From Microcaldota archaeon (GTDB lineage: Archaea > Micrarchaeota > Micrarchaeia > Micrarchaeales > Micrarchaeaceae): a DNA stretch of 64,000 bases. The DNA lies in NCBI GenBank assembly GCA_021811435.1, contig JAJZOR010000005.1, forward strand, positions 1 through 64,000, read 5' to 3'. Below the pieces are notes generated by a model. The model saw only the letters and a list, made by a program, of their open reading frames with translations. It was not told where the DNA came from and made no database searches. The position numbers and the translations under genes are program-made. Shown piece by piece: positions 23,547 through 60,893 of this stretch. Each line of letters starts with the position of its first letter. Within the stretch, counting starts at the first letter, position 1.

Positions 23547-23577
23547 ATTAGATGCTAGATGAAAATAAGTTTACGTT

Positions 23578-23655
23578 ATGGGAACGGTATTGGCAGCTCT
23601 CTTTATTATGATAGGCGCCATTGCCCGTTATTTCGTATTTTATAATGTGCAGTAG
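23578..23655 (+). CDS. possible hydrophobic micropeptide (25 aa)
   Basis: Short frame MGTVLAALFIMIGAIARYFV... that would form one membrane helix, sitting between a surface-protein gene and the FkbM gene. No clear ribosome site; may be chance. Confidence 0.25.
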   Translation: MGTVLAALFIMIGAIARYFVFYNVQ

Positions 23656-23664
23656 GTTAATTGA

Positions 23665-24612: not shown

Positions 24613-24777
24613 GCGCTGTTAGCAGATTTTGATTGACATTAATGCCATGTGCGATTTTGGGTAGGCGCTTGAGGCTGATTAGCTTATTTGTTAGCTCATC
24701 AAACTTTGTCGCCTAAGGCTGTTTTATGAATGAATTTTCTTGTAGTCAAGAAGCCAGATTTAGCTAAACAGGTACGC

Positions 24778-26442
24778 TTATTTTATTTTTTTGTATATAG
24801 TAAGCGGCGGTGCATCGCCGGAGTATGCCAGGAACGGATTACTTACGTTATAGACCATACTGTAGTCTGTCAGATTCCTGCTTACGCAGCTATCGAAATT
24901 GTCTGTGTATGATGGGCTTAAATCGAAGCTTATAGTGCCTCCCATTGCTATATAAGTACCGTTTGTCAGGTTATCTATATATGAAACGCTGCAGTTTTCT
25001 AGGTATGCGATGTTATACTTGTATGAAGTAAGGAGGTTGGCCTCGCCTGAAAAAAAGAAGCTGCTATAGAATTTTGAGGATGGATGTGTGCTCATATAAT
25101 TAATGAAAGAATGGAGCGTGTACATTGATGCCCTGTAGAACCCTATATCATTGTTGAGTACGCTTATATCGTAATACAGGACTACGCATATTAAAATAAA
25201 TGCAATGGCGTATAACAACATGCTTTTATGCTTCAGCATGGCCTCTAAACCTAGCGCAGTGACGACTATTAGAGGGAGCGTGAACACGGTAGTTATGTAA
25301 GTTACCTCGCTTATTGGATAGTAGTCCACAACGCCTTTGGCGATATTTACGTTGGAAGGAAAGAACATTATGGTTATCAGATAGAACACAAAGAGACCTA
25401 TGAACGCTAGTGCCCATTTGTTTTTGCGCATAAATACTATGTCTAATCCTGCCATTGCGATGAATGCGTAAAACGAGGCGCCGAAATATTTTAAGTAGGG
25501 ATCTACGGTAATAGGGGAATCGGTAAGCACTGATGGATAGAATGACGGGTAACCTGTCGTGTAAACAAGGCAGAAATTGCTTGATACGCAATAGCTCACT
25601 GTTGGCTGCGTCGCGTCTTGGTATACGTATACGGCGTGGGTTAATTCGGGGTATAAGAGATAATTGCCAGCCTCCAGTAAGTATACCAAGCCGATTAGGG
25701 AATATGCAATTATGAATCCCAGTACTATGAATGCGAAATTTTTAACTACGATTTTGTATGCCAACTTTTCTTTTAATGCGCCTACAATGCACATAATGGC
25801 GAATACTAATGGCAATAATGCCCCTATTGGATTAGTTATATATGTCAGGCCGGCGAATACGCCTGCGCTTAGATATAAGCTTATTTTATGTTTCTCATTT
25901 GCTATGATAAATGCGTAAATCGCTATATCGCCCATCATCATCGCAGGCACGAGCGGCTGTATATGTGTGGAAAACAAAACGTCAACAGGGAAGAATGCGA
26001 ATAAAAATGTGCCGATGACTGCTGCTCTGAATCTAGAAATGCGCTCGATTATTAAGAATATGAAGAAACCCTCTATGACCGAAGTAAGTATAACATAGTA
26101 TATTGCTATGTTTGCAGAAAAACCAAATATTTCCTGCAGCAATATTTCAGGATATATAAATCCTACATAGAATTGGAATTCCTCCGCCGGGTTACATCCA
26201 CAACGACTAAAATTGTTAAAGTTGATATCTGTATATGGCGAGAAGGATATTTGGTTTTTGAATAGAACGACAAGGGAGTATGTGTTTAGATATATTCCTT
26301 CATCTTGAGAATTGGCAAATATTGGGCCGCTGTAATAATAGAAGCGAACACTAAGTATTAGTAGCATTAAAAGTAAGATAACGGTTAGTCTTACGTTTTT
26401 GCGTTTACGCAGCCTAGAATAGGTATTCTTCATCATATGCAT
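24778..26442 (-). CDS. multi-pass GT39/PMT-like glycosyltransferase
   Basis: About 554 residues with 10-12 hydrophobic helices. After the first helix comes FANSQDEGIYL, the acidic pair used by GT-C enzymes for metal or catalysis, then loops like those of ArnT/dolichyl-phosphate-mannose transferases, and a long soluble C-terminal loop. It probably transfers a sugar from a polyprenyl phosphate on the outer face. ATG 26442 has a GTGAG site; a GTG at 26451 is also possible. Downstream of the polyprenyl-sugar synthase. Confidence 0.8.
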   Translation of the reverse strand: MHMMKNTYSRLRKRKNVRLTVILLLMLLILSVRFYYYSGPIFANSQDEGIYLNTYSLVVLFKNQISFSPYTDINFNNFSRCGCNPAEEFQFYVGFIYPEILLQEIFGFSANIAIYYVILTSVIEGFFIFLIIERISRFRAAVIGTFLFAFFPVDVLFSTHIQPLVPAMMMGDIAIYAFIIANEKHKISLYLSAGVFAGLTYITNPIGALLPLVFAIMCIVGALKEKLAYKIVVKNFAFIVLGFIIAYSLIGLVYLLEAGNYLLYPELTHAVYVYQDATQPTVSYCVSSNFCLVYTTGYPSFYPSVLTDSPITVDPYLKYFGASFYAFIAMAGLDIVFMRKNKWALAFIGLFVFYLITIMFFPSNVNIAKGVVDYYPISEVTYITTVFTLPLIVVTALGLEAMLKHKSMLLYAIAFILICVVLYYDISVLNNDIGFYRASMYTLHSFINYMSTHPSSKFYSSFFFSGEANLLTSYKYNIAYLENCSVSYIDNLTNGTYIAMGGTISFDLSPSYTDNFDSCVSRNLTDYSMVYNVSNPFLAYSGDAPPLTIYKKIK

Positions 26443-26452
26443 TATGCTCACG

Positions 26453-27241
26453 TTACCAATTAGCTATTAGTCTGTATAACGCTGGTCTTAATTTAGCAGG
26501 GATTATAAAGCTAAACCTTGAATGAATTATCCTAAACCCTATTGCAACAAAAAACATCTGCGCACTTCTTAATCCGAGGTTTATCTTCATGCTACTATCG
26601 CTCTTATTAACAAATTTTATAGGTATCTCATCTACTTTTTTGTTTTCTATTTTAAGCTCATAGAGTAGGTTTAAATCAAAACTAACATCCATTAATATGA
26701 TTCTACTAAGCACATTTTTTAACGCACTTTTTTTAAACAGTTTCGCTCCGCACTGTGTATCATTGAACTTTAATCCGAACAAAATTTTTACTACCTTATT
26801 GTAGGCGCGTGAGGCAATTCGTCCTTGCGAACTTAGATGACCTTGGTTTATGCTTCCCTTTGCGTACCTCGATGCTATCACACCATCTAATTTAGCATCT
26901 TGAATCTTATCTATCAGTTTTATTAGCTCTTCACCAGATATGGCATCATCTGCATCGGCGAACCCTATAATGCTCTCATTTTTAGACTTCTTGTAGGCAT
27001 ATTTGAAGCCCCTTAATATAGCAAAACCCTTACCTTTTCGTTTACTATTTTTTATTAGGGATATAACATTGTATTTTGATGAATAAGAGGAGACGACTTT
27101 ATTTGTATTATCTGTGCTGTCTGAAACAACCAATATGTGTGTATCTGTGTATCTCTTTGCAACTGTATTCAAGTAATCCTCCAACGTGGGCTTTATCCTT
27201 TTTTCTTCGTTATATGCGGGTATAACGATCCAAACTTCCAT
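26453..27241 (-). CDS. GT2 dolichyl-phosphate glucose/mannose synthase-like
   Basis: 262 residues. GT-A fold with VIPAYNEEKRI, VVSDSTDNTNKVV, DxD-type FADADDAI, TQCGAKLFKK and a C-terminal amphipathic region, closest to Alg5/DPM1-type enzymes that load glucose or mannose onto dolichyl phosphate. It would supply the donor for the adjacent GT39-like proteins. AT-rich codons and many AAA/ATA triplets. Ends 11 nt before the GT39 gene start. Confidence 0.88.
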   Translation of the reverse strand: MEVWIVIPAYNEEKRIKPTLEDYLNTVAKRYTDTHILVVSDSTDNTNKVVSSYSSKYNVISLIKNSKRKGKGFAILRGFKYAYKKSKNESIIGFADADDAISGEELIKLIDKIQDAKLDGVIASRYAKGSINQGHLSSQGRIASRAYNKVVKILFGLKFNDTQCGAKLFKKSALKNVLSRIILMDVSFDLNLLYELKIENKKVDEIPIKFVNKSDSSMKINLGLRSAQMFFVAIGFRIIHSRFSFIIPAKLRPALYRLIANW

Positions 27242-27285
27242 AATATCATTACTATTTTTTGTTATTAATGACGAGCCAGTGGGAT

Positions 27286-28899
27286 TTAGTTACCGCCCTG
27301 TGCTTTATAATATACTGTGAGATTTTTGTAATAAGAGTTAACAAACGATGTGTATAAAGTGCCAGTAGTAGAAGAAGGAGGTGGAGCGGCATAGGCAATG
27401 GTAAGATTGCATTGCTTTGCCATTGAAGCGTTGTAGAAATATATTATGTAACCTACGCCATTAACGTAATTGCAGGGCGGCAGAGACGAAAAGAAATAAA
27501 ATGTGTGTTGAAAATTTGTAAATGCAGGAGCTGGAATTTGGTAGGTATCATATAAAATGGCATTTGAGGGCAATGTGTTTGTATAGTTACCCACTTCTAC
27601 AATTTCAAATATTTGCCCATACTGCTGCATGGCTGTATACTGTATCGAACTGAAAGACTGTGAAAACAATATGAATAGCATATAACCTAAGAGTAAATAG
27701 GGTAGGATTATCGTAAAGCGCTTTATACCAGTTTTATATTTTTCGAATGTCGTGATTAGCGAGTCCATTCCGAATCCAAGAATTAGGACTAATGCGGGCC
27801 AAATTATTAGAGTGTAACGAGGTAGAGGGTACCAAATGCCATTTGTATAGTAGTGAATGCTGGCAGTCCCAAAACTTAAATAAAGGAAACACCAGAGAAT
27901 CCATATTAGTGGAATGGTCATTCTTTTTTCCTTTTTAAAAATCAGGTAACATAAAGCCAATAATACGACATACGAGTATATTCCATAATAATAAGGACTG
28001 AAAAAGTCAAATTCTGAAACAGGATTTATCGCCAAGTTAATGTGAAGGTATGCTAGTATGTTATTTAATGAACTTATACCTTGTGGGAACATTTGTGTCA
28101 GGTATATCATTATAGGGCTTGAGTTACCGCACGAACCATGATTCACAGAGCAGAAATCGCTGATAGATAGCGCGTTTGACTTGTATATTTCAAATGGATT
28201 ATTTGATAGCATTACGCCTATTAGCATCATAAGCAAAATTCCTGCAATAAGTGCTGCGGAGAAGCCTATGAAATCTTTGTTGACATAGGCGTGCCTGCTC
28301 TTAATTAAGAGTATAAAAAGCACTGGAAGTATCAGTATTTCTTCTGGAGTTATCATAAATCCGATTATTGCTATAAAACTGGAAAGTGAAACCATGTATA
28401 ATCTTTTTCTTTTATCTTTCTGCTTTGCGGATATAATCATAAGAAAAATAGCTAGTGTGACAAAAAATGCCATTGGAACATTGTCTCCTAAACTAAGTGC
28501 ATCAAATACTGCAAGTGGAAAAAAACTATATAGCAAGGCTGCAAAGAGACCTGCTCGTGTTCCGTAAATCTCCTTTCCTATTAAGAAGATTAATATATCG
28601 GTACCGACAAGGCACAGCACATCGAATAGAACCGAAGAGAATCTACTAACTCCAAGTAGTTGCATGAACAAGTGTATTGCACCTATAAGGATTAGGCGCG
28701 GACCAAGCATATAATCGTAGTTTAGTACTGCAGCGGCTCCGCCGGGTGTACCTATAGTATAAGCATCCACTACGTAGTCGTAGCCATTTGGTTGGTACGC
28801 AGGATCAGGACCATAGTAAAATGAGAAGCATAGCGTTATAGATAGAAAGCATATTAGGGCGATGGCTAAATATAGAATTATACGATTTCGGCTTAGCAC
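27286..28899 (-). CDS. multi-pass GT39-like glycosyltransferase
   Basis: 537 residues, about 11 membrane helices, acidic YGPDPAYQ and NGYDYVVDAY in the first outer loop, then LGPRLILI and a soluble C-terminal domain with Cys pairs. Same architecture as the protein at 24778-26442 with weak similarity, so a paralog acting on another sugar is likely. AT-rich. Head of the minus-strand glycosylation run. Confidence 0.78.
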   Translation of the reverse strand: MLSRNRIILYLAIALICFLSITLCFSFYYGPDPAYQPNGYDYVVDAYTIGTPGGAAAVLNYDYMLGPRLILIGAIHLFMQLLGVSRFSSVLFDVLCLVGTDILIFLIGKEIYGTRAGLFAALLYSFFPLAVFDALSLGDNVPMAFFVTLAIFLMIISAKQKDKRKRLYMVSLSSFIAIIGFMITPEEILILPVLFILLIKSRHAYVNKDFIGFSAALIAGILLMMLIGVMLSNNPFEIYKSNALSISDFCSVNHGSCGNSSPIMIYLTQMFPQGISSLNNILAYLHINLAINPVSEFDFFSPYYYGIYSYVVLLALCYLIFKKEKRMTIPLIWILWCFLYLSFGTASIHYYTNGIWYPLPRYTLIIWPALVLILGFGMDSLITTFEKYKTGIKRFTIILPYLLLGYMLFILFSQSFSSIQYTAMQQYGQIFEIVEVGNYTNTLPSNAILYDTYQIPAPAFTNFQHTFYFFSSLPPCNYVNGVGYIIYFYNASMAKQCNLTIAYAAPPPSSTTGTLYTSFVNSYYKNLTVYYKAQGGN

Positions 28900-29119
28900 A
28901 CGCGAACCTTTTTTGCTTTTTTATGCTTCGTCTTGGGTGGCACCATTGTCAAACCTATTATTTCTGATTATTTAGTACTTGATAATTATAAAGTTGTAAT
29001 GGCATCTACGTTAAATTTTTTAGCAGTAGCACTTAAACAGCTATTACGGACGTAGGAAGGTTGCGGGCAATCCGTGATCTGATATAGCTCACGCTGGACC
29101 ATGAACAAAAAGAAAAGAA

Positions 29120-47548: not shown

Positions 47549-47621
47549 GGGGCTGTACGCTAACCTGGCAGACTACCGCGTTCGGGTCGCGGTTATCCGA
47601 GTTCAAATCTCGGCAGCCCCA
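47549..47621 (+). tRNA. tRNA-Pro (CGG)
   Basis: Acceptor GGGGCTG/CAGCCCC with discriminator A, anticodon stem CCGCG/CGCGG and loop TTCGGGT (anticodon CGG), T-stem CCGAG/CTCGG with TTCAAAT. The D-loop has the GG of class I tRNAs, but the D-stem pairs poorly (CGCT against GACT), which is odd. TATA AAATATAAATTG at 47515-47526. A fragment of this tRNA recurs at 52724-52751. Confidence 0.88.
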
Positions 47622-47816
47622 TTTCTATTTACTTTGATAATCTCGGCATGAAACCGAAAAAAATGGTCGACTTTTGGGGAACTTCACATTACATTTTGAC
47701 GACATTATAATCTGGTTTTGACAAGCCCAGAATTTCGTCTTCGATGGAAGCTAGATAGACACAAAACATATTTTCATTCTGTAGAAAGCGTTAATAAGTA
47801 GTAGATATATTACTTA

Positions 47817-47832
47817 GTATAAGGTTATACTT
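47817..47832. promoter_or_regulatory. inverted repeat at ATPase promoter
   Basis: AGTATAA-GG-TTATACT is a 7 bp inverted repeat with a 2 nt centre, sitting 17-32 nt upstream of the ATPase start and containing TATA. The flanking ACTTAGTA occurs twice in direct orientation. It may be an operator for autoregulation by the winged helix of the encoded ATPase. Confidence 0.4.
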
Positions 47833-47848
47833 AGTAAAGGTGCAATGC

Positions 47849-48871
47849 ATGAAATTATTCGATACGAAGCCCAAATCGGACCCGCATTTTCTTTATGGTA
47901 GGGAAAAGGAACTAGAACTGCTTGTACGTTATCTAAAACAAAATGATTGGATTATATTGTTAGGTCCTAGAAGGATAGGCAAAACCTCTTTGGCAAAATG
48001 TGCAATAACTAGATTAGGGTATAAAAGTATAACGATAGATGCTAGGGAGAACAACAATTTTGAAGAATCACTTTTAAAATCGCTTAAGCACCATGAAGGT
48101 TCTTTTAATATAAGGGCTGAAGTTAAGGCGCCGCATCTCCCTGTAAATTTGGGGGTAGATTATAACAGAAAATCTTCTGCGGAGAACTTAAGTGTGATGC
48201 TGAAAAAAGCAGGCCGTCTGATAGTTTTAGTGGACGAAGCTCAGTGGCTTCACAATCCTCGCAGGGTAAACATGTTACTTTCTTATATATATGACACATA
48301 TTACGACAAGATAACCTTTGTGATAACCGGATCAATGATAGGTGTAATGAAATCAATAGTAGATCCTGGGGCCAGAAGTCCATTATACGGCAGAGCAATT
48401 ACTAAAATGGAAATAGAGAGATGGGGATCTTCGGTCAGTATAGGATTTTTGAAATCAGGCACCAAGGAAGTTGGATTGGAAATGAATGACCAGATTGGTC
48501 TGACTATAGAGGAAAAGTTAGACGGCCTTCCTGGATGGCTTACCCTTTTTGGGTATAATTATGCCCATATAAAGAATCCTAATGCTGCTTTGACGGAAAC
48601 AATTAAAGAAGCAAAAAAAGTTGTTTCCCGGGAGATGAAGAACATTGGCGATCTGGGCATTGGTTTAGAAAGGATTACCGAGATATTGCAAGACTTGGCC
48701 AAGGAACCTATGAGATTTACCGACTTATTGGATTCTACGGGTTTCAGCAACGCGGTCCTTTCTAGGCATATCGATACGTTGGAACGCCTTGGCTATATAG
48801 AGAAGGACCATAGGGACGAATACCTAATAAGCGATCCAATCCTAGCTGCCTATATCAACGAAAATCCGTAA
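47849..48871 (+). CDS. archaeal AAA ATPase with C-terminal winged helix
   Basis: 340 residues of the archaeal ATPase_2 family (MNS/STAND type). Walker A GPRRIGKTSLAK (about 38-49), Walker B LIVLVDEAQWLH, sensor-like VITGSMIGVM, and a C-terminal winged helix (DSTGFSNAVLSRHIDTLERLGYIEKD). Such proteins are common on archaeal mobile elements and near tRNA genes; function usually unknown. AT-rich relative to surroundings. ATG 47849 follows AAAGGTG. Confidence 0.88.
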   Translation: MKLFDTKPKSDPHFLYGREKELELLVRYLKQNDWIILLGPRRIGKTSLAKCAITRLGYKSITIDARENNNFEESLLKSLKHHEGSFNIRAEVKAPHLPVNLGVDYNRKSSAENLSVMLKKAGRLIVLVDEAQWLHNPRRVNMLLSYIYDTYYDKITFVITGSMIGVMKSIVDPGARSPLYGRAITKMEIERWGSSVSIGFLKSGTKEVGLEMNDQIGLTIEEKLDGLPGWLTLFGYNYAHIKNPNAALTETIKEAKKVVSREMKNIGDLGIGLERITEILQDLAKEPMRFTDLLDSTGFSNAVLSRHIDTLERLGYIEKDHRDEYLISDPILAAYINENP

Positions 48872-48935
48872 GAGATACTGCTATAATTTTCTCTGATGCG
48901 AAAGCGGTATTTGGTGGACTATGCAGTACTGCAAA

Positions 48936-49346
48936 TCACAATGCCTTGTTGGCGTCCGACATAGTCTGTTTACCTATATCAGCACGTTTTGTCTGAGCTG
49001 CCATGGACGCCACCACGGCGTCCGAGACCTTTTCGTAGACGCCCTCCATAAACTCGACGAAATTGGCCTGCTGCCTCCAGAATCTTGGCTCTCCCAGTCT
49101 TTTTATTAGTGCGGCGTTGACTGTAGGTCTTTCCATAGAGTAGCTCAGGCCGGAAAAGTCAGGGGTCTGCCAGAATCTCTCTATCTCCTCCCGCATTTTG
49201 GGGCTTTTTTTTGCAATCTTTGGCTTTGCAGGACCTTTTAACGGTCCAGGAACCTGAACCTTTGCATCGATTTGGCTGCTGCTAGAAGAAATCTTGCGCC
49301 TTGCATCCCCAAGGCGCTCGAGCTGAAATTGAAGCGGCACTGCCAA
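48936..49346 (-). CDS. hypothetical protein in accessory segment
   Basis: 136 codons from a TTG start behind GGAGGT. Ser-rich, Lys/Pro-rich N-terminal part and a helical C-terminal half (IERFWQTPDFSGLSY, EPRFWRQQANFVEF) with aromatic repeats; no known motif. Directly follows the interrupted zinc-finger frame on the same strand. Might be the tail of that gene after frame damage, or a separate small gene. Confidence 0.5.
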   Translation of the reverse strand: MAVPLQFQLERLGDARRKISSSSSQIDAKVQVPGPLKGPAKPKIAKKSPKMREEIERFWQTPDFSGLSYSMERPTVNAALIKRLGEPRFWRQQANFVEFMEGVYEKVSDAVVASMAAQTKRADIGKQTMSDANKAL

Positions 49347-49420
49347 GCAATCCGATTACCTCCCTGTAGCTTGCCGAAAATGGGCTACTCTTTCCTATAC
49401 TTCCCTTGGTATGCCTGGAT

Positions 49421-49738
49421 TCAATCACTGTATTCTCTGCCCACACGCACAGACCATGGGCATCTTTCCATACTCCGTGAAGCACAAACATTCAATTCCA
49501 CCAGTTCAAAATCCACCATCACTCCAATGGAGCCGCATTCGGTGCATTTCGGGCAAAGCAGGGTATCTCACTGCTTCTGTAGCATCGATGCGCTCGGGTT
49601 CCCCTTCTGCGCTATCTTCATTGCCTTGATCCATGCCCTGAGTTCATCTTCTTTCAAATCTGCGAAATGGCATATAGTTACGCCTGATTCTTCCATTGCA
49701 TATGCAAGCTCGCTGAAATCTATACCTATCCTTTTCAT
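49421..49738 (-). pseudogene. zinc-finger gene interrupted by an in-frame TGA
   Basis: ATG 49738 opens 56 codons (MKRIGIDFSELAYAMEESG ... SASMLQKQ), stops at TGA 49568-49570, and the same frame continues with a Cys-rich zinc-ribbon-like part (LCPKCTECG ... VCASRS) to 49421. A TTTTAAAGTTTC box about 25 nt upstream suggests a leaderless gene. Family unknown. Sits beside an IS element, so decay is likely; a sequencing error or readthrough are alternatives. Confidence 0.5.
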
Positions 49739-49774
49739 ATATTGATACTTGTAGTTGAAACTTTAAAAACTTGG

Positions 49775-50762
49775 TGTCTTATCCCGAAATAAGTTCCTCA
49801 CGACAAGAAAGATATTGGCCCTCAGAGACGAAGAAATCATGAGAAAATTGAATCTGAGGAAGGTACGGTGGATAGTGAGGGAGACGAAAAAGAGGGACCT
49901 GTCTATGTACCAAATCGCAAAACAACAAGGAATAACGCAAAGATACGTTAGAATGTTGTATAAGCGCTACAAAGATGTCCAACCATACAAACTCAATAGG
50001 GCAGTCTGTTTGAGGCGGTGCGGTCGAAAGCAGCGGCCTATCACGGATTATGAGATAAACGAAGTCGTAGCAGTCAAGATGCAGATGAGATTCGGGACCT
50101 GCAATATAGAGAAGATACTTTCTGAGAGGGGCATCAAGATACCGCACAACAGAATCCACAGGATACTGATAGAAAACAATCTTGCAAAGAACGAACCGAA
50201 GAAGGGCAAGATAAGGAAGTGGATTAGGTACGGGAGGCGGCACAGTAACTCAATGTGGCATGCTGATTGGACCAAATACAGCGGCGATAACATTCTGCTT
50301 ATAGAGGACGATTCTTCTAGGTTGATTACAGGTTACATTGGATCCAAGACTGCTACGACTGACATTACAATTTCAACATTCGACTCTGCTGTAGAAAAGT
50401 GGGGTAAGCCACGAGAGGTCCTCACGGATAGAGGGACGCAATTCTGTGAGAATGAGGACAACAAATATCGGTTCAGAGAGCATCTGAAATCTCTGGGGAT
50501 AAAACACATCCTTGCAAGGGTGAAACATCCTCAGACCAATGGCAAGGTGGAACGATTAAACCATACAATATTCCAGTTGATAAAACTGAAAGGGTCGTTG
50601 GATGCAGCGGTCAAATTCTACAATGAAGAGAGGTCACACATGAGCCTGGAAAATGGCCATCTCAGGACGCCACTGACTGCGTTTTATGAGAAAAAACGAA
50701 ATAATTAAGAGGTGAGATGACGAAACAAAATTACCGAGAGGGACTTAATTCAGGACAATACA
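49775..50762 (+). mobile_element. IS481-like insertion sequence
   Basis: 988 bp element with imperfect terminal inverted repeats starting TGT: left 49775-49797 and right 50740-50762 match at about 18 of 23 positions. One transposase gene inside. No clear target-site duplication, so either the element is old or the exact ends are slightly off. Confidence 0.8.
49839..50708 (+). CDS. IS481-family DDE transposase
   Basis: 289 residues from ATG 49839 (an in-frame TTG at 49815 exists). N-terminal helix-turn-helix (MYQIAKQQGITQRYVRMLY), then an rve integrase core with catalytic DDE: Asp in WHADWT, Asp in LTDRGTQF, Glu in NGKVERLNH. No internal stop, so it may be active. Confidence 0.93.
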   Translation: MRKLNLRKVRWIVRETKKRDLSMYQIAKQQGITQRYVRMLYKRYKDVQPYKLNRAVCLRRCGRKQRPITDYEINEVVAVKMQMRFGTCNIEKILSERGIKIPHNRIHRILIENNLAKNEPKKGKIRKWIRYGRRHSNSMWHADWTKYSGDNILLIEDDSSRLITGYIGSKTATTDITISTFDSAVEKWGKPREVLTDRGTQFCENEDNKYRFREHLKSLGIKHILARVKHPQTNGKVERLNHTIFQLIKLKGSLDAAVKFYNEERSHMSLENGHLRTPLTAFYEKKRNN

Positions 50763-50856
50763 GACAGTTTATCTGTAGGAAAAACATAAATAGTTGTTAA
50801 TGAGCGTTATATCGAGCGGCGTCTGAAATCAAAAACTAGAAAGGGCTGAGCAAACA

Positions 50857-52212
50857 ATGGTTATCGTATCTAAGTTCGGCGGTGGCATCCTGAAGGATGA
50901 GGAAAACTTCAAAGCCGCTGCAAAGATTATCCGCAGCAAAAAGGAGCATACAGTTGTCGTTGTTTCGGCCGCCAACGGCGTAACTGATTCCATTATAGAG
51001 GCCTTACATAGCGCGTCCAAAGGGACCTTCGATGTCGATCTTTTCACAGAGGATCTTGCCAAAAAGCATGAGAGCCTCATCAAGCATATCGAAAATCCTA
51101 AAATCAGGGAAAGCGCCGTATCCCGAATCCGCGAGAAGGCAGCCACGCTCAACAAACTTCTTTGCGGGGTGCTTTTTTTAAGGGAGGCCTCACCACGCGT
51201 CAACGACCTAGCCATGAGTTTCGGTGAGAGGCTGTCTGGGATAGTATTCGAGGCGCATCTTCTAGATTCTGGGATAAATGCGAAAGCCTTCGAGGCCGAC
51301 AGAATTGGCATACTTACAACAGACAGGTTCGGAAAGGCAAAGCCATTACTCGAAGAGACAAGACTAAACCTCGAGAGGACTATCATACCATTCTTGAGCA
51401 AGGGAACTGCGGTGGTTACAGGGTTCTTCGGCGCAGATGAGCACGGAAACGTGACTACCTTCGGTAGAGGGGGCTCCGATTTCAGCGCCGGCATTATAGC
51501 AAATGTGCTTGATGCGGAAAGGCTGGAAATCTGGAAGGATGTCCCTGGATTTATGTCTGCAGACCCGAGAATCGTACCCCAAGCCAAAAAGATTGACATG
51601 TTGAGCTACGACGAAGCGGAAGAGCTCGGATATTTTGGCGCGAAAATACTTCATCCGAAGACCATCGCTCCGATGCGCTCAAAGAATATACCGATAGTTA
51701 TCAAAAGCATCTTAGAACCCTCCTCGGACGGGACGCAGATTTCAGAAAAGAGGCATAAGATGACGCAGGTGGCAAAATCTGTTGCAGTAAAAATGAATGT
51801 TTCTATGTTGACTGTTAAGGGTGCTGAGGTCCTTGATATGACGCAGACCATACCGTTCTTGTCAAAGCTCGCAGAGTACGACATCTCATTAGACGCAGTC
51901 TCCACATCAGAAACAGGCATGTCACTAGTTTTTGATAAAAATGATGTACACAAGGTCAAAAATGCGCTAAAGCACTTCCCGAGTGCGGAGGGGATAGAAT
52001 TCGAAGAGGACGTATCGCTCGTCGGCCTGATAGGCGAGGGCATGAAGTCAGAGCCCGGAATAAGCGGTAGGCTTTTCAGGAGCATAGGTGATGCTGGTGT
52101 GAGCATAAGAATGATATCGCAGGGGGCATCTGAGATAAATATCTCATTCGTGATAAAAAGAAAGGACGTTAATGTAGCATTAAATGCGATTCATGCTGAG
52201 TTCATGGAATGA
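50857..52212 (+). CDS. lysC: aspartate kinase (monofunctional, ACT domains)
   Basis: 451 residues. Amino-acid kinase domain with SKFGGGILKD, VVVVSAANGVT, FGERLSG, TTFGRGGSDFSA and SADPRIV, then two ACT domains (about 300-450) for Thr or Lys feedback. First step of the aspartate pathway; asd, hom, thrB and thrC are at 55-59 kb. Codons favour ATC over ATA, unlike most neighbours, and it lies within the tRNA-Pro-bounded segment, suggesting transfer. Promoter AACATAAATAG near 50785. Confidence 0.95.
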   Translation: MVIVSKFGGGILKDEENFKAAAKIIRSKKEHTVVVVSAANGVTDSIIEALHSASKGTFDVDLFTEDLAKKHESLIKHIENPKIRESAVSRIREKAATLNKLLCGVLFLREASPRVNDLAMSFGERLSGIVFEAHLLDSGINAKAFEADRIGILTTDRFGKAKPLLEETRLNLERTIIPFLSKGTAVVTGFFGADEHGNVTTFGRGGSDFSAGIIANVLDAERLEIWKDVPGFMSADPRIVPQAKKIDMLSYDEAEELGYFGAKILHPKTIAPMRSKNIPIVIKSILEPSSDGTQISEKRHKMTQVAKSVAVKMNVSMLTVKGAEVLDMTQTIPFLSKLAEYDISLDAVSTSETGMSLVFDKNDVHKVKNALKHFPSAEGIEFEEDVSLVGLIGEGMKSEPGISGRLFRSIGDAGVSIRMISQGASEINISFVIKRKDVNVALNAIHAEFME

Positions 52213-52723
52213 TGATATGTTGAGAGCGGCAATCTTGGATGCTGTGTAATCCCATCGGTGCCCATAGGCGCCTCCTTGCTGGGGTTAGTGGGGGATTGAA
52301 TTTCTAAATCTTGGGCTGGGCTTGAATCTTGACTGGCTTTTCTGGCCTTTTTTTGGGTGGTCGTATTTAGGCGGCCGAATTTAGATTTTGTCGTCGAAAA
52401 ATCATGTACCAAAATCACCGGAAAACGCCATAGTCCTAGCGACTTTGTATCCAGAAGGGAGAAGAGACCATGGATCTTTATCTAACTTAACCTGGCCACT
52501 TTGAGTAGCTAGGTTAAGGTGTTAAATAATTTTACTCTCAGTAAATTTGTATATTTTGAATACTTGAATGCAGTATAGCTCATAAGTCATGCGCTCCGAT
52601 TCAAGCATAAATCTGGTCAGTACTTGCTTATAGACTTAGAGCCTGAATTATTTGCATCGAAACGCCAGACGAAGCTTCGGATGCTTGGACTGCGCTGGAA
52701 TGGCTAGAAAGAGCGCGCTAGGG
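52213..52723. other. gene-free 510 nt stretch
   Basis: AT-rich and without a convincing frame; a 75-codon minus-strand reading (52191-52418) overlaps the lysC end and has no support. A GTTAAATAATTTTAC element at about 52520 could be a TATA box. Nothing else seen before the tRNA-Pro fragment. Confidence 0.45.
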
Positions 52724-52751
52724 CCTGGCAGACTACCGTTCGGGTCTCGGC
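52724..52751 (+). pseudogene. degenerate tRNA-Pro fragment (possible att remnant)
   Basis: CCTGGCAGACTACCG, TTCGGGTC and TCGGC follow each other here and appear in the same order in tRNA-Pro (47564-47578, 47581-47588, 47610-47614), with 2 nt and 21 nt missing. This covers the D-loop, anticodon loop and T-stem. Direct orientation, 5.1 kb apart. Confidence 0.65.
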
Positions 52752-52834
52752 GAATCAATTTTAGAAACCTAAATATAATAATAGGTTTAATTTTACGATT
52801 GAAACACAATATTTATAGGACAACGGCGGTGCGT

Positions 52835-53443
52835 ATGGAAACGATAAAAAATGATGTAGATGGAAAGGAAGTGGCACATGAACAAAAGGCCCAGACCACG
52901 AAGAGAGCAACGGGTTTGAAGAATCTTAATATTACTCCGAAGATTGCTGTCGGAGTTATAATATTGTTGGCGGCGGTTGTGGTTATTTATGTCGCGGTTA
53001 ACAATTCAATCGCTCAGGTGGTTAGGATGGGGGACACTATTTCGGTTAACTACACTGGTACGCTTACAAACGGTACCGTCTTTGATGCTAGCTCGCTACA
53101 TGGCGGGCCATTTAATTTCACTGTTGGCTCAAATGTGATTCAGGGATTTAGTAACGGTGTTATAGGCATGACAGTTGGGGAAACGAAGACGGTGACTATT
53201 CCAGTAAACGAGGCTTATGGGCCGATAAATCCTGCATTGATTATGCACGTACCGACAAATGTCTTGAAAACGGATTTGAATGTTACACCGGCAGTGGGCA
53301 TGCATATTAGGGATGGCGCGGGGGAACAGGGGGTTATCACTGCAGTAAATGCAACGAATACCACAGTGGATTTCAATTCACCCTTAGCAGGCCAGACGCT
53401 AACCTTTAAAATCACTATCGTTAAGATATTGAAAACTGCATGA
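52835..53443 (+). CDS. membrane-anchored FKBP-type prolyl isomerase
   Basis: 202 residues. Charged head, transmembrane helix at about 32-54 (IAVGVIILLAAVVVIYVAV), then an extracytoplasmic FKBP domain with an IF flap (ISVNYTGTLTNGTVFDAS, FSNGVIGMTVGETKTV, SPLAGQTLTFKI). It likely folds surface proteins. ATG 52835 lies about 25 nt after AATATTTATAGG, giving a leaderless message; the longer frame from 52652 runs through the tRNA fragment and is not credible. Confidence 0.9.
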   Translation: METIKNDVDGKEVAHEQKAQTTKRATGLKNLNITPKIAVGVIILLAAVVVIYVAVNNSIAQVVRMGDTISVNYTGTLTNGTVFDASSLHGGPFNFTVGSNVIQGFSNGVIGMTVGETKTVTIPVNEAYGPINPALIMHVPTNVLKTDLNVTPAVGMHIRDGAGEQGVITAVNATNTTVDFNSPLAGQTLTFKITIVKILKTA

Positions 53444-53584: not shown

Positions 53585-54013
53585 TTATCTCCTGATTTGC
53601 TTTAGCTGGTACGCTATTTCTTTTATTGCCCCGTTTTCCTTTACCTCTATCAAGACGCGACGATCGTAAGGCGCGGCGCTTCTCACCATTTTTGACAACT
53701 TTTTAAAGTCTGCAGCGCTTATCCTTTCGTAGTCGTACAGCACAAAGACCATCGGGAACATGTTCGGCGTGATCACTGTCGACTCTCTGACCTTGAAATA
53801 CATGCCATTTACTGAGATGCATCCTACGCGGCTGTCGTATCCTGGCAGTCTTGTATCGGATTTGAGGTAAAGGCTGAACTCCGAAGAGATGCATCGGATG
53901 TGGTCTAAGTCTGCGAAGGTCATTCTGCCTTCCCTGTTATTCGACAGTTCTGCCAGCACTTCGTCCTTCCTGACGCCTTCGGCTTTAGAATCAATTATCT
54001 TGCGCATTTCCAT
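53585..54013 (-). CDS. hypothetical protein
   Basis: 142 residues, alpha/beta, charged, no motif recognised (FKVRESTVITPNMFPMVFVL, KLSKMVRSAAPYDRRVLIEV). GGTG ribosome site 6 nt before ATG 54013. Second gene after 54036-54446 with 22 nt spacing, so probably one transcript from the promoter at about 54495. Confidence 0.7.
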   Translation of the reverse strand: MEMRKIIDSKAEGVRKDEVLAELSNNREGRMTFADLDHIRCISSEFSLYLKSDTRLPGYDSRVGCISVNGMYFKVRESTVITPNMFPMVFVLYDYERISAADFKKLSKMVRSAAPYDRRVLIEVKENGAIKEIAYQLKQIRR

Positions 54014-54035
54014 TTTAACACCTGCAAAAGCTTTA

Positions 54036-54446
54036 CTAGCCGCTGCGTATGTAATTCATTTCGCTCTGGGCTGCACGGATAAGAGCTTCCAGGACGCATT
54101 TGTCCAGATCTGTTTCTTTGTATTTCCTGATATAGGACATAAGCCCTTCAGACACGCCAAGTGCAATTTTATCCGGGGTGACAACAAATAACGGCTCCCC
54201 GTTATCTTCGTCCGCATCCAGTCTGTGCTCCGGTACGGCCTCGTTCCTTTCGGCCACCGGCCCATATCCGATGGTCGCAAGAGAGCATAAGACATCCATG
54301 CGCAGCACTCCGATTAGATCTGTCCCGTTGTACAGATCCTTCCCGTTGTATTTCTTTATCATTGTCGTTACTTTTTCAATCTTGGCCCTGTAATCCTTGG
54401 GCACATCGATTTCCATTCGCTCGCTTCGATACATCGTTTTCTCCAT
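54036..54446 (-). CDS. hypothetical protein
   Basis: 136 residues, soluble, charged, helical C-terminus (CVLEALIRAAQSEMNYIRS). No family recognised. ATG 54446 is preceded by GTGGTC; the upstream in-frame extension to 54524 would run through the TTTAAATATAT promoter. Divergent from the ACT regulator across a region with repeated TATACA half-sites, so both may respond to it. Confidence 0.7.
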   Translation of the reverse strand: MEKTMYRSERMEIDVPKDYRAKIEKVTTMIKKYNGKDLYNGTDLIGVLRMDVLCSLATIGYGPVAERNEAVPEHRLDADEDNGEPLFVVTPDKIALGVSEGLMSYIRKYKETDLDKCVLEALIRAAQSEMNYIRSG

Positions 54447-54517
54447 CTTGACCACGTTGCTATTTTTACTCAGGTATGTTATAGTTTTGGATATATTTAA
54501 ACTATCATGTATAAAAG

Positions 54518-54566
54518 TATACAATATAGATATACATATTTAAACTTAAGTGTATATAATTATACA
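54518..54566. promoter_or_regulatory. operator-like TATACA repeats in divergent promoter
   Basis: TATACA occurs at 54518, 54531 and 54561 and its complement TGTATA at 54551; TGTATA-TAAT-TATACA forms a 16 bp inverted repeat just before the ATG at 54568. The spacing suggests a regulator binding site between the two divergent units. Confidence 0.5.
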
Positions 54567-54567
54567 T

Positions 54568-55068
54568 ATGCTGAAACTGCTGGAATCATTTTTTGAGAAG
54601 GCCAGGGGCAGGAAACTTGTTGCAATGGAGTTTTTGCGCCTAGGATTAAGGGTCGACGGATTGGGGAAGATTTACTTCGGAAAGGTAGAGATCCAGCCGG
54701 CGAAGATAGGGAGGGCGCTGGGCGTTGACAGGCGGGTAGTGATAGAGACCGCCAAAGCCATTGCGCATGACGACGGGCTGCTGCCTATTTTTTACAGGCT
54801 GGAGCCGCGCGCCTTTATAGGCAATGCAGCGAAGGCGTTGGGCTTTGATACTATAGAGATACACGCAGACCCCAGGAAGAAGGGGATTGTCGCCGGAGTG
54901 ACTAAGGTCCTAGCGGGCGAGGGCATTGCAATACGCCAGATAATAAGCGACGACCCTGACCTTTTCCCTGAGCCCGTGCTGACGATAATAATAGACGGGA
55001 AGCTTGAGGCGGGGGTGATTAAGAAACTCAAGGAACTCACGTTCGCTGACAGCATTTCGGTAAGATGA
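54568..55068 (+). CDS. HTH-ACT regulator of amino-acid metabolism
   Basis: 166 residues. An N-terminal winged-helix-like domain (IGRALGVDRRVVIETAKAIAHD) and a C-terminal ACT domain (GIVAGVTKVLAGEGIAIRQIISDDPDLF). This matches archaeal predicted transcription regulators with ACT domains that sense amino acids. It lies next to the threonine operon, so feedback control of thr genes or of itself through the TATACA repeats is plausible. Confidence 0.88.
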   Translation: MLKLLESFFEKARGRKLVAMEFLRLGLRVDGLGKIYFGKVEIQPAKIGRALGVDRRVVIETAKAIAHDDGLLPIFYRLEPRAFIGNAAKALGFDTIEIHADPRKKGIVAGVTKVLAGEGIAIRQIISDDPDLFPEPVLTIIIDGKLEAGVIKKLKELTFADSISVR

Positions 55069-56421: not shown

Positions 56422-57336
56422 TCATCCCAAAACTTTTATGCCGTCATTCGATATCCGGCTAAGTATGATTTCATGCTTTTCCTTAAAGATGTTGTCTATG
56501 CGTGACAGGAGGCGGGCCTTGTTCTTATTTGACCTGTCGCCTAAAATCAATATGGCTGGCCCTGCGCCACTCGCTGCCACGCCGTAACCGAGGCCGCTCC
56601 CTGCGCCCTTTATCTCTTCGAAATGCCTTAGTATCCCGGCCTTGGCCCTGGCGGGTTCCGCTATCCTGTCATCCATCGCCTTGGTCAGGGCTTCTATGTC
56701 GCCGTCAAGCATGGAGCATATCAGCGCGGACAGGCATTGGAGGTTATGCTGTGACGACGCCCTGCTTACATTGTCAGGCAGAACGCTTCGCGCGGCCTTC
56801 GTTGAAGTTTTGCCCTCCTTCGGAGCCAATATTATGGCTTCTAAGCGGCTAGGCGCCCTTATCTTCTTTATCCTAAGCGGGTTCTTTGAGAATGCTATTG
56901 TGAAACCGCCCAGTATGGCAGGGGCGACGTTGTCCACGTGCGGAGCGCCGGCGGCTATCTGCTCGCCCAGAGAAGCGTACCTCACCAATTCTTCATCGGT
57001 GAGACCGAGGCCGAATAATTTGTTGGCTGCATACGCGACCCCGGCGGCACTCGCTGCGCTGCTGCCCAACCCGCTGCTTGGTCTTATCCCTTTATCCATC
57101 GATACGCTGAGGTGCCCAATGCCAAAGTCCTCCCTCATCTTTTTTATGACTGGGCCGCACGTGTTTTCATCAAGCTTTTCAGGAACGCGGTATTTTCCGG
57201 ACGATTTCAAAGCATCCTCGTCCGACACTGAAACGGACATCACGTCGAACGGGAGGCCCAATGCTATTCCGCATATGTCGAAACCTGATCCCATGTTCGC
57301 AGATGTTGCAGGGACCTTAATCCTTATGCTTTTCAC
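56422..57336 (-). CDS. thrB: homoserine kinase
   Basis: 304 residues, GHMP kinase. Starts IKVPATSANMGSGFD, ATP loop RPSSGLGSSAASAAG, and the C-terminal GLGYGVAASGAGPAILIL. Phosphorylates homoserine for ThrC. Its first 20 nt overlap the end of hom, and its stop overlaps an out-of-frame ATG at the thrC junction. Confidence 0.96.
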   Translation of the reverse strand: MKSIRIKVPATSANMGSGFDICGIALGLPFDVMSVSVSDEDALKSSGKYRVPEKLDENTCGPVIKKMREDFGIGHLSVSMDKGIRPSSGLGSSAASAAGVAYAANKLFGLGLTDEELVRYASLGEQIAAGAPHVDNVAPAILGGFTIAFSKNPLRIKKIRAPSRLEAIILAPKEGKTSTKAARSVLPDNVSRASSQHNLQCLSALICSMLDGDIEALTKAMDDRIAEPARAKAGILRHFEEIKGAGSGLGYGVAASGAGPAILILGDRSNKNKARLLSRIDNIFKEKHEIILSRISNDGIKVLG

Positions 57337-58393
57337 GTCTACACCGCTTCATTCCCTCTAGCGCTATTTTTAGATTTCCGGCCACCCTGCTTGCAGTGAC
57401 ATCGCCGCCGCTGCCCGGACCTGCCATGAAAATCCTGAATTCGGTCATGTTCGCCATGCACTTTATCTCTATGGCGTTGTCTATGCCCACCACGCCCGCC
57501 AGAGGGTCATTGCCGTCCAGTATCTCAGGGCCCACTGAGGCGCTAATCCTGCCATTCGTTTTCCTTATTGTGCACACAAGCTTTATCGTCTTGCCCCGTT
57601 CTTTCAGCATTCTGACCTGTGCGCCCGCTATGCCCTCTATCCCGAGATGCTTGCCATCTATGCCATACATCTTTATGGAACTCATTTCTATTTTTTTGCC
57701 GAATATGCGATTGCATAGCCCCACCACCTTCAAAGCGGAATCATAGCCTTGCGTGTCGTATCTGTAATCAGCCTCCGCGTATCCGAGCCTTATCGCATCA
57801 CTGAGCGACGCATCGAAATCAACGCTCTCGAGCCTGCCTAGCATATAGTTTGTCGAGCCGTTAAGTATCGCCCGCGCCTCTTTTATATCGGCGTTTAGGC
57901 CGCCCAGGGCCTCAAACACTGGGGTGCCGCCCATAACGCTGGCGCCGTCAAGGAACACTAGGTTCCCCTCATTGGCTAATGCCTCAACCTGCTCCATCGC
58001 ACTTATGGACCTTAGGTGATTCTTCGATGAAACCACTACGTTTGAACCGCTCCTTAACGCATGCAGGACGTCCCTGAATCCGGGCGCCTCGCTTTCAACA
58101 TTTGTCGGAGTCATGTCTATGAAGACATCGGGTTTCATCGCATCTATGACGTACTTTGCGTTGATCTTCTTTGACGCTGGGGATTCGGCTAACTTCTTGT
58201 ACCGCTCCTTCTCGCGCAGCACCCGCTTTGGATCTAGGCCATGTACATCGGCAAGGCCGCCTGTGCTGTCTAGCGCCGCTACTAGGGCTATTTTGATGCC
58301 GTTGGCATCCGCCCAGCCTGCGACCTGGTCCCACATACGGAGCAAGCCCCTGCCTACGTTGCCCAGGCCGGAGACGGCTATCTTGAACATCAT
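57317..58393 (-). CDS. hom: homoserine dehydrogenase
   Basis: 358 residues. NAD(P) motif VSGLGNVGRGLLRM, VVVSSKNHL, and the catalytic region LNGSTNYMLGRL, GYAEADYRYDTQGYDSALKV with the expected Asp and Lys. Reduces aspartate semialdehyde to homoserine. No ACT domain, so regulation must lie elsewhere. Overlaps asd by 4 nt. Confidence 0.96.
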   Translation of the reverse strand: MMFKIAVSGLGNVGRGLLRMWDQVAGWADANGIKIALVAALDSTGGLADVHGLDPKRVLREKERYKKLAESPASKKINAKYVIDAMKPDVFIDMTPTNVESEAPGFRDVLHALRSGSNVVVSSKNHLRSISAMEQVEALANEGNLVFLDGASVMGGTPVFEALGGLNADIKEARAILNGSTNYMLGRLESVDFDASLSDAIRLGYAEADYRYDTQGYDSALKVVGLCNRIFGKKIEMSSIKMYGIDGKHLGIEGIAGAQVRMLKERGKTIKLVCTIRKTNGRISASVGPEILDGNDPLAGVVGIDNAIEIKCMANMTEFRIFMAGPGSGGDVTASRVAGNLKIALEGMKRCRREKHKD

Positions 58394-59412
58394 ATATAGC
58401 CTCTAGATCGCGCTAATTCTGCGTCCAGTATGCCGGCGCCCGCGGCGCCCCTCACCAAGTTGTCCCCGACCACTGAATACGCTATGCTCTTCCTGTCAGG
58501 GCCGTACCTCAGCCTACCGACCGTGACGGACATGCCGTTCGTATCCAGGCGCGGCTGGGGCCTGTTCGACTCATCCCTCACCAATATCGGGTTCTCCGGG
58601 GCCGAATGCAGCCCTTTCAATCCAGGGAAGCGCTTCATCGATTCCTTCACGTCGCCCAGCTCCACGCTGCGCTCGAACTCTATGTATACGGAAATCGTGT
58701 GGCCGTTAAGCACAGGCACCCTGTTGCACGAGCCGAAGATGCTTATGTCGCTGCTCTTTATCGCCCCATTCTTTACCGTCCCGAATATCTTTTTGGGCTC
58801 GTCCCTAAGTTTTTCTTCCTCATCATGTATGTATGGGATGACATTTCCAAGCGCTTCTACGGAGGCTACTCCGGGATGACCTGCGCCGCTCAGGGCCTGC
58901 ATGGAAGTCGCCACGACTTTTTTCACCCCGAATTTGTCAACAAGAGGTTTGAGCGATAGGCTCAGTATTATTGTAGTACAGTTCGGATCGCACACCAACC
59001 CGCCTTTAACGTACCTTCTTTGGGCATCCAACAGCGCAAGGTGCTCGGCGTTTATTTCAGGTATCATGAGCGGCACCCTTTTGTCCATCCTGTTCGCGCT
59101 GGCTTTGCTTATAACGAGCTTGCCCTCCTCCGCGAGTTTCCATTCGGCCTCCTTAGCCATGTCTGACGGCAAGGCAGAGAAAACGACGTCTGATTCTATT
59201 TTGTCATCAATGCCCTTTACCCTTATTTCGTTTGCGTCGCCACGGATCTCTGACATTATTCCATTGCTGACGTCACCGAAGCGCTTGCCCTTCGAGCGCT
59301 CCGAAGCAACCAGCTCCGCTACGCTGAACAGCGGATGGTCTGCAAGCAACTCTATGAACTTGTGGCCTACCAGGCCTGTCGCACCTAGCACGGCAACACT
59401 TATTCTCTTCAT
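58390..59412 (-). CDS. asd: aspartate-semialdehyde dehydrogenase
   Basis: 340 residues. NADP motif VLGATGLVGHKF, catalytic Cys in CDPNCTTIIL, and SGAGHPGV and the NRVPVLNGHT substrate region with catalytic His. Reduces aspartyl phosphate. A strong AGGTGAGGAG ribosome site precedes ATG 59412. Confidence 0.96.
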   Translation of the reverse strand: MKRISVAVLGATGLVGHKFIELLADHPLFSVAELVASERSKGKRFGDVSNGIMSEIRGDANEIRVKGIDDKIESDVVFSALPSDMAKEAEWKLAEEGKLVISKASANRMDKRVPLMIPEINAEHLALLDAQRRYVKGGLVCDPNCTTIILSLSLKPLVDKFGVKKVVATSMQALSGAGHPGVASVEALGNVIPYIHDEEEKLRDEPKKIFGTVKNGAIKSSDISIFGSCNRVPVLNGHTISVYIEFERSVELGDVKESMKRFPGLKGLHSAPENPILVRDESNRPQPRLDTNGMSVTVGRLRYGPDRKSIAYSVVGDNLVRGAAGAGILDAELARSRGYI

Positions 59413-59418
59413 ATCTCC

Positions 59419-59601
59419 TCACCTAATCCAGACAATGAAGCCCGCGCTGTTCACGGGTGTGGATGCGGCCACTGCGATCTCTTTTTCCTTCCGCCCTATG
59501 GCCATCAATTTTGCAGCGCTCCTTATCAGTCCGCCTGACGAAAGGCTTTTGCCGCCGATCCTTATCACTATTCGCTTTTTTTGCATGCGATTCTGCGCCA
59601 T
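59419..59601 (-). CDS. truncated aspartate-kinase-like N-terminal fragment
   Basis: 60 residues, first gene of the thr operon. RIVIRIGGKSLSSGGLIRSA followed by AAKLM and EIAVAASTPV resembles the start of amino-acid kinases (compare VSKFGGGILKD ... AAKII ... VVVVSAA in the aspartate kinase at 50857), but the rest of the kinase is absent. It may be the remnant of the resident aspartate kinase. A TTTATATA box about 75-82 nt upstream likely drives the operon. Could instead be a small unrelated protein. Confidence 0.5.
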   Translation of the reverse strand: MAQNRMQKKRIVIRIGGKSLSSGGLIRSAAKLMAIGRKEKEIAVAASTPVNSAGFIVWIR

Positions 59602-59831
59602 TTTGATTGAGGCGACGGTCAGGGAACCACGGTTTGCCGTAACGGCTGAATCCCAGAAAAACGAAATCGGTATATAAAATTTTTCGGAGATTCAACTAGC
59701 TACGACTAGCATGTTGTAGCTGTTGCCCCTAAATCTCCGCTCAGACCCATGCTTATAGTTTAATTGCGCTGCTTTATAAACTTTTTGTAGAGTAGCTTTA
59801 AAAGGCTGCGATAAGAAATAGACCCGGTTCT

Positions 59832-60893
59832 ATGCACGCTTCGAAGGGCTTCGCCAGCGACAACAATTCCGGGGTACATCCTGCAATAATGAAAGCCATT
59901 GAAAAGGCAAACGCAGGGCACGCGATAGCCTACGGCAACGACCACTACACTATGCGCGCAATAAAGAGGATGCGCGCCAATTTCGGCGATGACATAGACG
60001 CCTATTTCGTATTCGCCGGGACAGGGGCCAACGTCGTGGCCCTTAAGTCGATGACCGATTCCTTCAATGCGATAATATGCGCAGAAACCGCGCACATGAA
60101 CATTGAGGAGGTGGGCGCACCGGAGAAGTTCACCGGGTGCAAGCTGCTTACGGTGCCGACTACCGACGGCAAGATAGGCATAGATGGCATAAGGAGGCAT
60201 CTGCACGCGATGGGCAACCCCCACCACTCGCAGCCCAGGGTCGTATCTATAACCCAGGCAACAGAGTACGGCACGGTTTACACAAAGGATGAGATTGCTG
60301 ACATAGCTGATTTCGCGCATAGCAACGGTATGCTGCTGCATGTTGACGGGGCGAGACTGGCTAACGCGGCGGTCAGCCTGGGAAGTTCGCTGAAGTCCAT
60401 CACATCGGATGCAGGCGTTGACGCGCTATCTTTCAGCGGAACTAAGAACGGCATGATGTACGGCGAGGCAGTTATATTCTTCGACAAGTCGCTTTCCCGG
60501 AACGTCAGGTTCATACAGAAGCAGGCCACGCAGTTGCCGTCCAAGATGAGATTTATATCAGCGCAATTCGAGGCCCTCCTGTCGAATGACTTGTGGAGGA
60601 GGAATGCCAAAAACGCCAACGGAATGGCCAGGAAGCTGGCATCTAGGCTGGAGGACGCGCTGGGCATAAGGATAACGCAGCGCGTTGAGGCGAACGCGGT
60701 GTTCGCGCTGATACCGAAGGGGTACATAGAGGATATACAAAGGAGGTACTTCTTCTACGTTTGGAGGGAGGAAGGCGAGTTTGCCGAGGTCCGCTTCATG
60801 CCTTCTTTTGACACCACGTCCGGAGACGTGGAGGAATTCGTGGGATTTCTTGGCGATTTGATGGCGGATAAGAAGGCTAAGCGCTTGAAATAA
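59832..60893 (+). CDS. ltaE: low-specificity threonine aldolase
   Basis: 353 residues, PLP fold I. FASDNNSGVHPAIMKAI start, TGANVVALKSM, VDGARLANAAVSLG, and the PLP Lys in FSGTKNGMMYGEA. Splits threonine (or allo-threonine) to glycine and acetaldehyde. Divergent from the threonine operon, so production and turnover lie side by side. Confidence 0.95.
   Translation: MHASKGFASDNNSGVHPAIMKAIEKANAGHAIAYGNDHYTMRAIKRMRANFGDDIDAYFVFAGTGANVVALKSMTDSFNAIICAETAHMNIEEVGAPEKFTGCKLLTVPTTDGKIGIDGIRRHLHAMGNPHHSQPRVVSITQATEYGTVYTKDEIADIADFAHSNGMLLHVDGARLANAAVSLGSSLKSITSDAGVDALSFSGTKNGMMYGEAVIFFDKSLSRNVRFIQKQATQLPSKMRFISAQFEALLSNDLWRRNAKNANGMARKLASRLEDALGIRITQRVEANAVFALIPKGYIEDIQRRYFFYVWREEGEFAEVRFMPSFDTTSGDVEEFVGFLGDLMADKKAKRLK

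Follow-up and report, generated by a model that had tools for sequence, protein, structure and literature searches.

The question raised by this locus is why a piece of a tRNA gene lies 5.1 kb downstream of the intact gene, and whether the DNA in between was carried there by a mobile element. The window (the whole stretch of 64,000 nucleotides that was analyzed) comes from a Candidatus Micrarchaeota genome of 1.1 Mb in 25 contigs, which we compared with relatives from the same group, all of the named ones being metagenome-assembled genomes (MAGs). The original prediction was of a segment bounded by tRNA-Pro and a tRNA-Pro fragment, holding an ATPase, a broken gene, an IS481-like element and an aspartate kinase, and it took this segment to be a decayed integrative element at a tRNA attachment (att) site. 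Both boundaries are present, on the same strand and in direct orientation, and everything named in that prediction lies between them:

47549-47621, + strand: intact tRNA-Pro(CGG) (tRNA call), the proposed attB/attL of the element
47840-48871, + strand: archaeal ATPase (ATPase_2 with a C-terminal HTH; Pfam)
48936-49745, - strand: broken gene with frameshifts, of no recognized family (three-frame reading)
49775-50757, + strand: IS481-like insertion with imperfect terminal inverted repeats at 49775 and 50757 and a transposase at 49815-50708 (NCBIfam, repeats)
50857-52212, + strand: monofunctional aspartate kinase of 451 residues with ACT domains (Pfam), the only aspartate kinase detected in the genome
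52255-52284, + strand: linker relic with core TAGGCGCCTCCTTGCTNGGG at 52265-52284, which elsewhere flanks integrase/att junctions
52367-52400, + strand: possible second, older att relic, a degenerate tRNA-Pro 3' end plus flank; weak (9 mismatches in 30)
52605-52710, + strand: upstream block of intN, with a TATA-like CTTATAGAC at 52627-52635; homologous to the intN upstream block of genome G004
52700-52752, + strand: intN, the start codon and first codons (MARKSALG) of a partitioned integrase gene, in frame into the tRNA copy (motif, frame and upstream comparison)
52724-52750, + strand: attR, a partial tRNA-Pro copy of positions 16-44 with a 2-base deletion (alignment to the tRNA)
52835-53443, + strand: FKBP-type peptidyl-prolyl isomerase (Pfam), the first gene outside the proposed element, with its own TATA-like TATTTATA upstream

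The tRNA copy is short and eroded. It reads CCTGGCAGACTACCG--TTCGGGTCTCGG (15 exact bases, a 2-base gap, and then 11 of 12 bases with one mismatch), and the 3' end of the tRNA is not clear in it. When a 201-base query was compared with the 1.1 Mb genome, tRNA-Pro was the sole meaningful match (E = 0.0012; the next has E = 2.3). A match over 29 columns is by itself of moderate significance, so that the fragment alone would be weak evidence; its 5' context is what settles its identity. Composition, which had been proposed as a check, shows a lower GC for the segment (0.443 over 47622-52752, as compared with 0.514 across the window) but leaves the right border unmarked; the dip runs on to approximately 54.5 kb, beyond attR, and composition was for this reason rejected as a border marker. 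(A strongly low-GC island, at 0.35-0.41 against 0.51 for the window, occupies positions 23500-29000, outside the present finding.)

The 5' context resembles the start of an integrase gene. A reading frame begins ATGGCTAGAAA... at 52700 (ATGGCTAGAAAGAGCGCGCTAGGG) and passes in frame into tRNA sequence, giving MARKSALG-PGRLP in the integrase frame up to the 2-base deletion. The layout of upstream block, start and tRNA copy is also that of G004, a genome of the same genus, in which 52 bases of tRNA-Pro(CGG) (98% identity) lie away from the usual PriX neighbor and are preceded by a block with the TATA-like CTTATATAC and by ATGGCTAGAAAAATAGACGGTAAA. Aligned with G004, the 106 bases upstream of the window copy score 54, against a best score of 30 in 1000 shuffles (upstream parts only). 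The 11-mer ATGGCTAGRAA is found at six distinct sites in the approximately 2.2 Mb of DNA searched (the window locus, G004, L237 and three tRNA-Leu loci, of which two belong to the window's own genome and one to G003), each of them with a tRNA copy within tens of bases downstream; at L237 the copy is of tRNA-Pro(CGG) and lies 0.8 kb downstream of the gene. By our estimate chance alone would yield approximately two such 11-mers in this amount of DNA, but not adjoining tRNA copies. The frame through the tRNA (PGRLP...) is the one used by intC, the catalytic C-part of the recombinase, behind tRNA-Pro at L171 and at L126/L136. Because the start codon, the upstream block and the reading frame match integrase 5' ends in other genomes, we place the tRNA fragment within intN, the 5' portion of an SSV-type ('suicidal') tyrosine recombinase gene that has been partitioned; this accounts for an otherwise puzzling piece of tRNA.

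The search for integrase relics that was suggested at the outset thus turns one up, at 52700-52752 with its upstream block at 52605-52710. The claim that the integrase had been lost holds for its catalytic part, but the 5' end survives from the ATG at 52700. Nothing convincing of intC or of any integrase core was detected in the window, and we therefore speak of a remnant, not of a functional member. (After the 2-base deletion the frame from 52700 continues open into the FKBP gene, to 53443, possibly by chance.) The same evidence bears on the view that the fragment is a random match, or the slippage relic of a non-mobile tRNA duplication. A match of only 29 columns with a genome-wide E of approximately 0.001 is compatible with that view, but it would leave the agreement with integrase 5' ends elsewhere, and the tRNA copies behind six of six motif sites, without explanation; given the intN context we rule out a chance match and consider the view as a whole highly improbable.

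The form of the complete element can be read in relatives. Across the genus, tyrosine recombinase genes sit immediately behind tRNA genes, with the frame open through the 3' part of the tRNA; at tRNA-Pro(TGG) (L126 and L136) this frame is PGRLPALGAGYPSSNLGLP followed by TDDKSTTKSVF. Directly behind tRNA-Pro(CGG), the tRNA of the window locus, intC is present at L171 (truncated), L187 and L193, as it is at other tRNAs of the window's own genome. Complete attL-intC-cargo-intN-attR units are found at L171 and L187, both at the same tRNA-Pro, and at L129, at tRNA-Leu in the window's own genome. The intC frame of L171 is PGRLPASGAGYPSSNLGSP followed by ILSLLTTKSEF, and 2.6 kb further on a second tRNA copy is entered in this frame from a start codon (MLEKCDAKPGRLLALGASHPSSNLGSPI); the cargo of this 2.6 kb unit is a transposase and a DeoC-type aldolase. 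At L187 (genome G016) the tRNA is followed by QISAAP and then CFVSGRG, with MQASNQISAAP 3.5 kb on, and the cargo is an N6/N4 methylase and an HNH endonuclease. Both ends of L129 read LSAFVSSNLTPCTFKSR, 3.1 kb apart, and their shared sequence extends approximately 45 bases beyond the tRNA. In every clean case examined the integrase gene is split; the clean elements that we measured are short (about 1.8-3.5 kb), and we identified no replication gene among their contents.

The stretch from tRNA-Pro(CGG) to 52752 is thus very probably what remains, after decay, of a small integrative element of the SSV type (suicidal), and the original reading of a decayed element at a tRNA att site gains support from the attR copy inside intN and from the intact units at the same tRNA. 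Elements of this type keep their attachment site, a copy of the tRNA, within the 5' part of the tyrosine recombinase gene that they encode. When one inserts into the tRNA, that gene is split: intC comes to lie behind the rebuilt tRNA, and intN (promoter, start codon and first codons) is carried with the second tRNA copy (attR) to the opposite border. In the window, intC would afterward have been deleted, an IS inserted and one gene broken, with the ATPase and the aspartate kinase remaining; tRNA-Pro, and intN with attR at 52605-52752, would be the surviving parts of the element. While the intN/attR structure and its intact equivalents in relatives can be read directly from the DNA, we infer the integration event and the joint arrival of the cargo.

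Comparison of the locus among relatives yielded no clean empty site, and none of them has tRNA-Pro followed directly by FKBP. In G002 the ATPase, the IS and the kinase are absent between tRNA-Pro and the next gene, and the gene order beyond differs; approximately 115 bases after tRNA-Pro come genes that in the window lie past FKBP. A module of three genes (two unknown genes and a TrpY-like regulator) is at 53585-55068 in the window, between FKBP and ThrC, and directly behind tRNA-Pro in G002 (L065, 14158-15625); the module has therefore moved, and the locus has been rearranged as well. The window and G003 have PriX-tRNA-Pro on the left and FKBP-ThrC-ThrB on the right in common, and the DNA between differs apart from the kinase. 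The interval in G003 (approximately 12 kb) contains Vsr, a cytosine methylase, a predicted type II restriction ATPase, int1, a 15-base copy of the tRNA 3' end, a broken int2, further genes and the aspartate kinase, with int1 (- strand), the tRNA copy (17275-17289) and int2 (+ strand) forming junctions stacked at tRNA-Pro. No intN/attR relic was seen between its aspartate kinase and FKBP. A 30-base piece of tRNA-Asn (93% identity) lies near int1 in G003, in an att-like position (L067, 16980-17009); it is at most a candidate att site, and was dropped as a parallel case of intN.

These comparisons show tRNA-Pro(CGG) to be a recurrent insertion hotspot at which defense and enzyme cargo are usual. 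The window ATPase, which is 74% identical to a protein from another family and has no close relative within its own genus or family, fits this cargo pattern; proteins with 74% and 59% identity are found in two genomes of that other family, and the gene was acquired horizontally. The 74% identical ATPase lies shortly behind tRNA-Ser in G040 (L153, 8386-10055), where neither an integrase nor a tRNA copy was found beside it; a search of viral contigs for relatives of the ATPase and of intC found none. The insertion sequence is present in one copy in the genome. It has the TGTC-type inverted ends of the IS481 family, and its transposase has NCBIfam transpos_IS481 as best match, but the score of 164 bits is under the curated cut-off of 224, so that we call it IS481-like only.

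The aspartate kinase, listed in the original prediction as codon-atypical cargo, does lie between the tRNA and attR but is not private to this genome: a copy with 80% identity occupies the same interval between tRNA-Pro and the FKBP gene in the sister species G003, with unrelated flanks on both sides, and strain-specific cargo is thereby rejected. Shared gene order in distant relatives, named beforehand as an observation that would count against the element, is found for the kinase only, and within the genus only. Since the sister species has it in the same place, the kinase is old at this spot; its arrival as element cargo is uncertain. It could instead be ordinary resident DNA of the threonine cluster, with the tRNA fragment brought beside it by rearrangement and no mobile carrier involved, a reading to which we give slightly less than even chances. 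The order kinase-FKBP-ThrC-ThrB-Hom-Asd is the same in G003, and the kinase is the sole one detected in the window's genome (G000); G001 and G002 instead carry a short aspartate kinase after asd in the threonine cluster, which neither G000 nor G003 has. The divergence of the kinase (pS 0.61) falls slightly below the values for other shared genes (0.65-0.84) and does not decide between inheritance and transfer. Resident DNA is harder to reconcile with the location of the kinase between the tRNA and attR, with its absence beside FKBP in G002, with the lack of a close homolog elsewhere in the family and with the enzyme cargo (DeoC-type aldolase) of the L171 element at the same tRNA. (The threonine cluster of the window, at 57317-59832 [compare L066 and L152], is without the short kinase, whose place may have been taken by the 451-residue kinase near tRNA-Pro.)

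The segment might also be a composite of several hotspot insertions, in which the ATPase, the broken gene and the linker relic would belong to one element and intN/attR (52605-52752) to another, with the kinase either older or resident. The 20-base linker core occurs exactly at only four loci in five genomes of the genus, namely the window and three loci beside integrase junctions in G003 and G004, and 52367-52400 is the best match in the window to the G002 tRNA end plus flank. Because of this second right-end-like relic (52255-52400) inside the proposed element, more than one insertion event is likely. The stacked junctions of G003 at the same tRNA, and the kinase common to both species amid unrelated flanks, point in the same direction, but the segment retains a single good tRNA copy, and the other att-like site is a poor match; we give the full composite, too, slightly less than even chances. 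The remnant of a small suicidal element remains our best explanation, against which stand the missing intC, the eroded attR, the lack of a tRNA-Pro-FKBP relative, the kinase in G003 and the second relic.

The window's own genome has approximately nine tRNA genes or tRNA-like loci with a tyrosine recombinase C-part open in frame directly behind them: C20 (L126), C6 (L128, L134), C1 (L129), C19 (L130), C4 (L131), C7 (L127), C22 (L132) and C2 (L133). Between sister species, intC genes at the same tRNA have dN/dS of roughly 0.1-0.2. Their identity between G000 and G001 is 87-90% (Pro, Leu and Gln), compared with 54% for PriX, a pattern more in keeping with elements that circulate than with vertical retention, and we rejected the idea that they are domesticated by the host. 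It is an even call, in our judgment, whether an abundant and apparently undescribed family of miniature elements with suicidal integrases exists in Micrarchaeota (about 1.8-5 kb, with a conserved MAR[K/N] intN start, one to three cargo genes and intC). Its members would take up a considerable fraction of the tRNA genes in a genome of 1.1 Mb and would move restriction-modification systems as well as single metabolic enzymes, one of which may be the aspartate kinase that in this lineage replaced the kinase of the threonine cluster. Only a few groups of archaea are known to have suicidal integrases, and there is debate over how such integrases are maintained once they have destroyed their gene. 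Very small DPANN genomes with some nine tRNA-linked intC genes, several with a matching intN/attR, would be a rich data set on that persistence, and would also inform how reduced archaea gain defense and metabolic genes.

Among known systems, pNOB8-type (type II, classical) integrases likewise use tRNA att sites and are tyrosine recombinases, but their gene stays intact on insertion; here the gene is split at L129, L171 and L187, and only intN is left in the window. The Thaumarchaeota integrated mobile elements, as far as the available text describes them (PMC6563490), are likewise archaeal integrated elements known from genome sequence, in different hosts; according to a review, tRNA genes hold over half of their attB sites (PMC8371274). 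The closest likeness is to the SSV-type (type I, suicidal) integrases of SSV1/SSV2, pTN3 and pT26-2, in which attP lies inside the integrase gene, intN and intC are split in a tRNA that is rebuilt, and the att site is translated as part of the protein (PMC8371274). That review gives Sulfolobales, Desulfurococcales, Thermococcales, Archaeoglobales and Methanosarcinales as hosts, and the word DPANN is absent from it; we found no report of suicidal integrases in Micrarchaeota in the open-licence literature. The window has the tRNA att site with an intact tRNA and the intN with a tRNA copy in the integrase frame, and differs in having no intC behind the tRNA; the elements described here share with the SSV type an att site inside a tyrosine recombinase gene split at a tRNA, and differ in their Micrarchaeota host and in the small size of the clean elements (approximately 1.8-3.5 kb). 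The type of element is therefore known, and its occurrence in Micrarchaeota is apparently described here for the first time.
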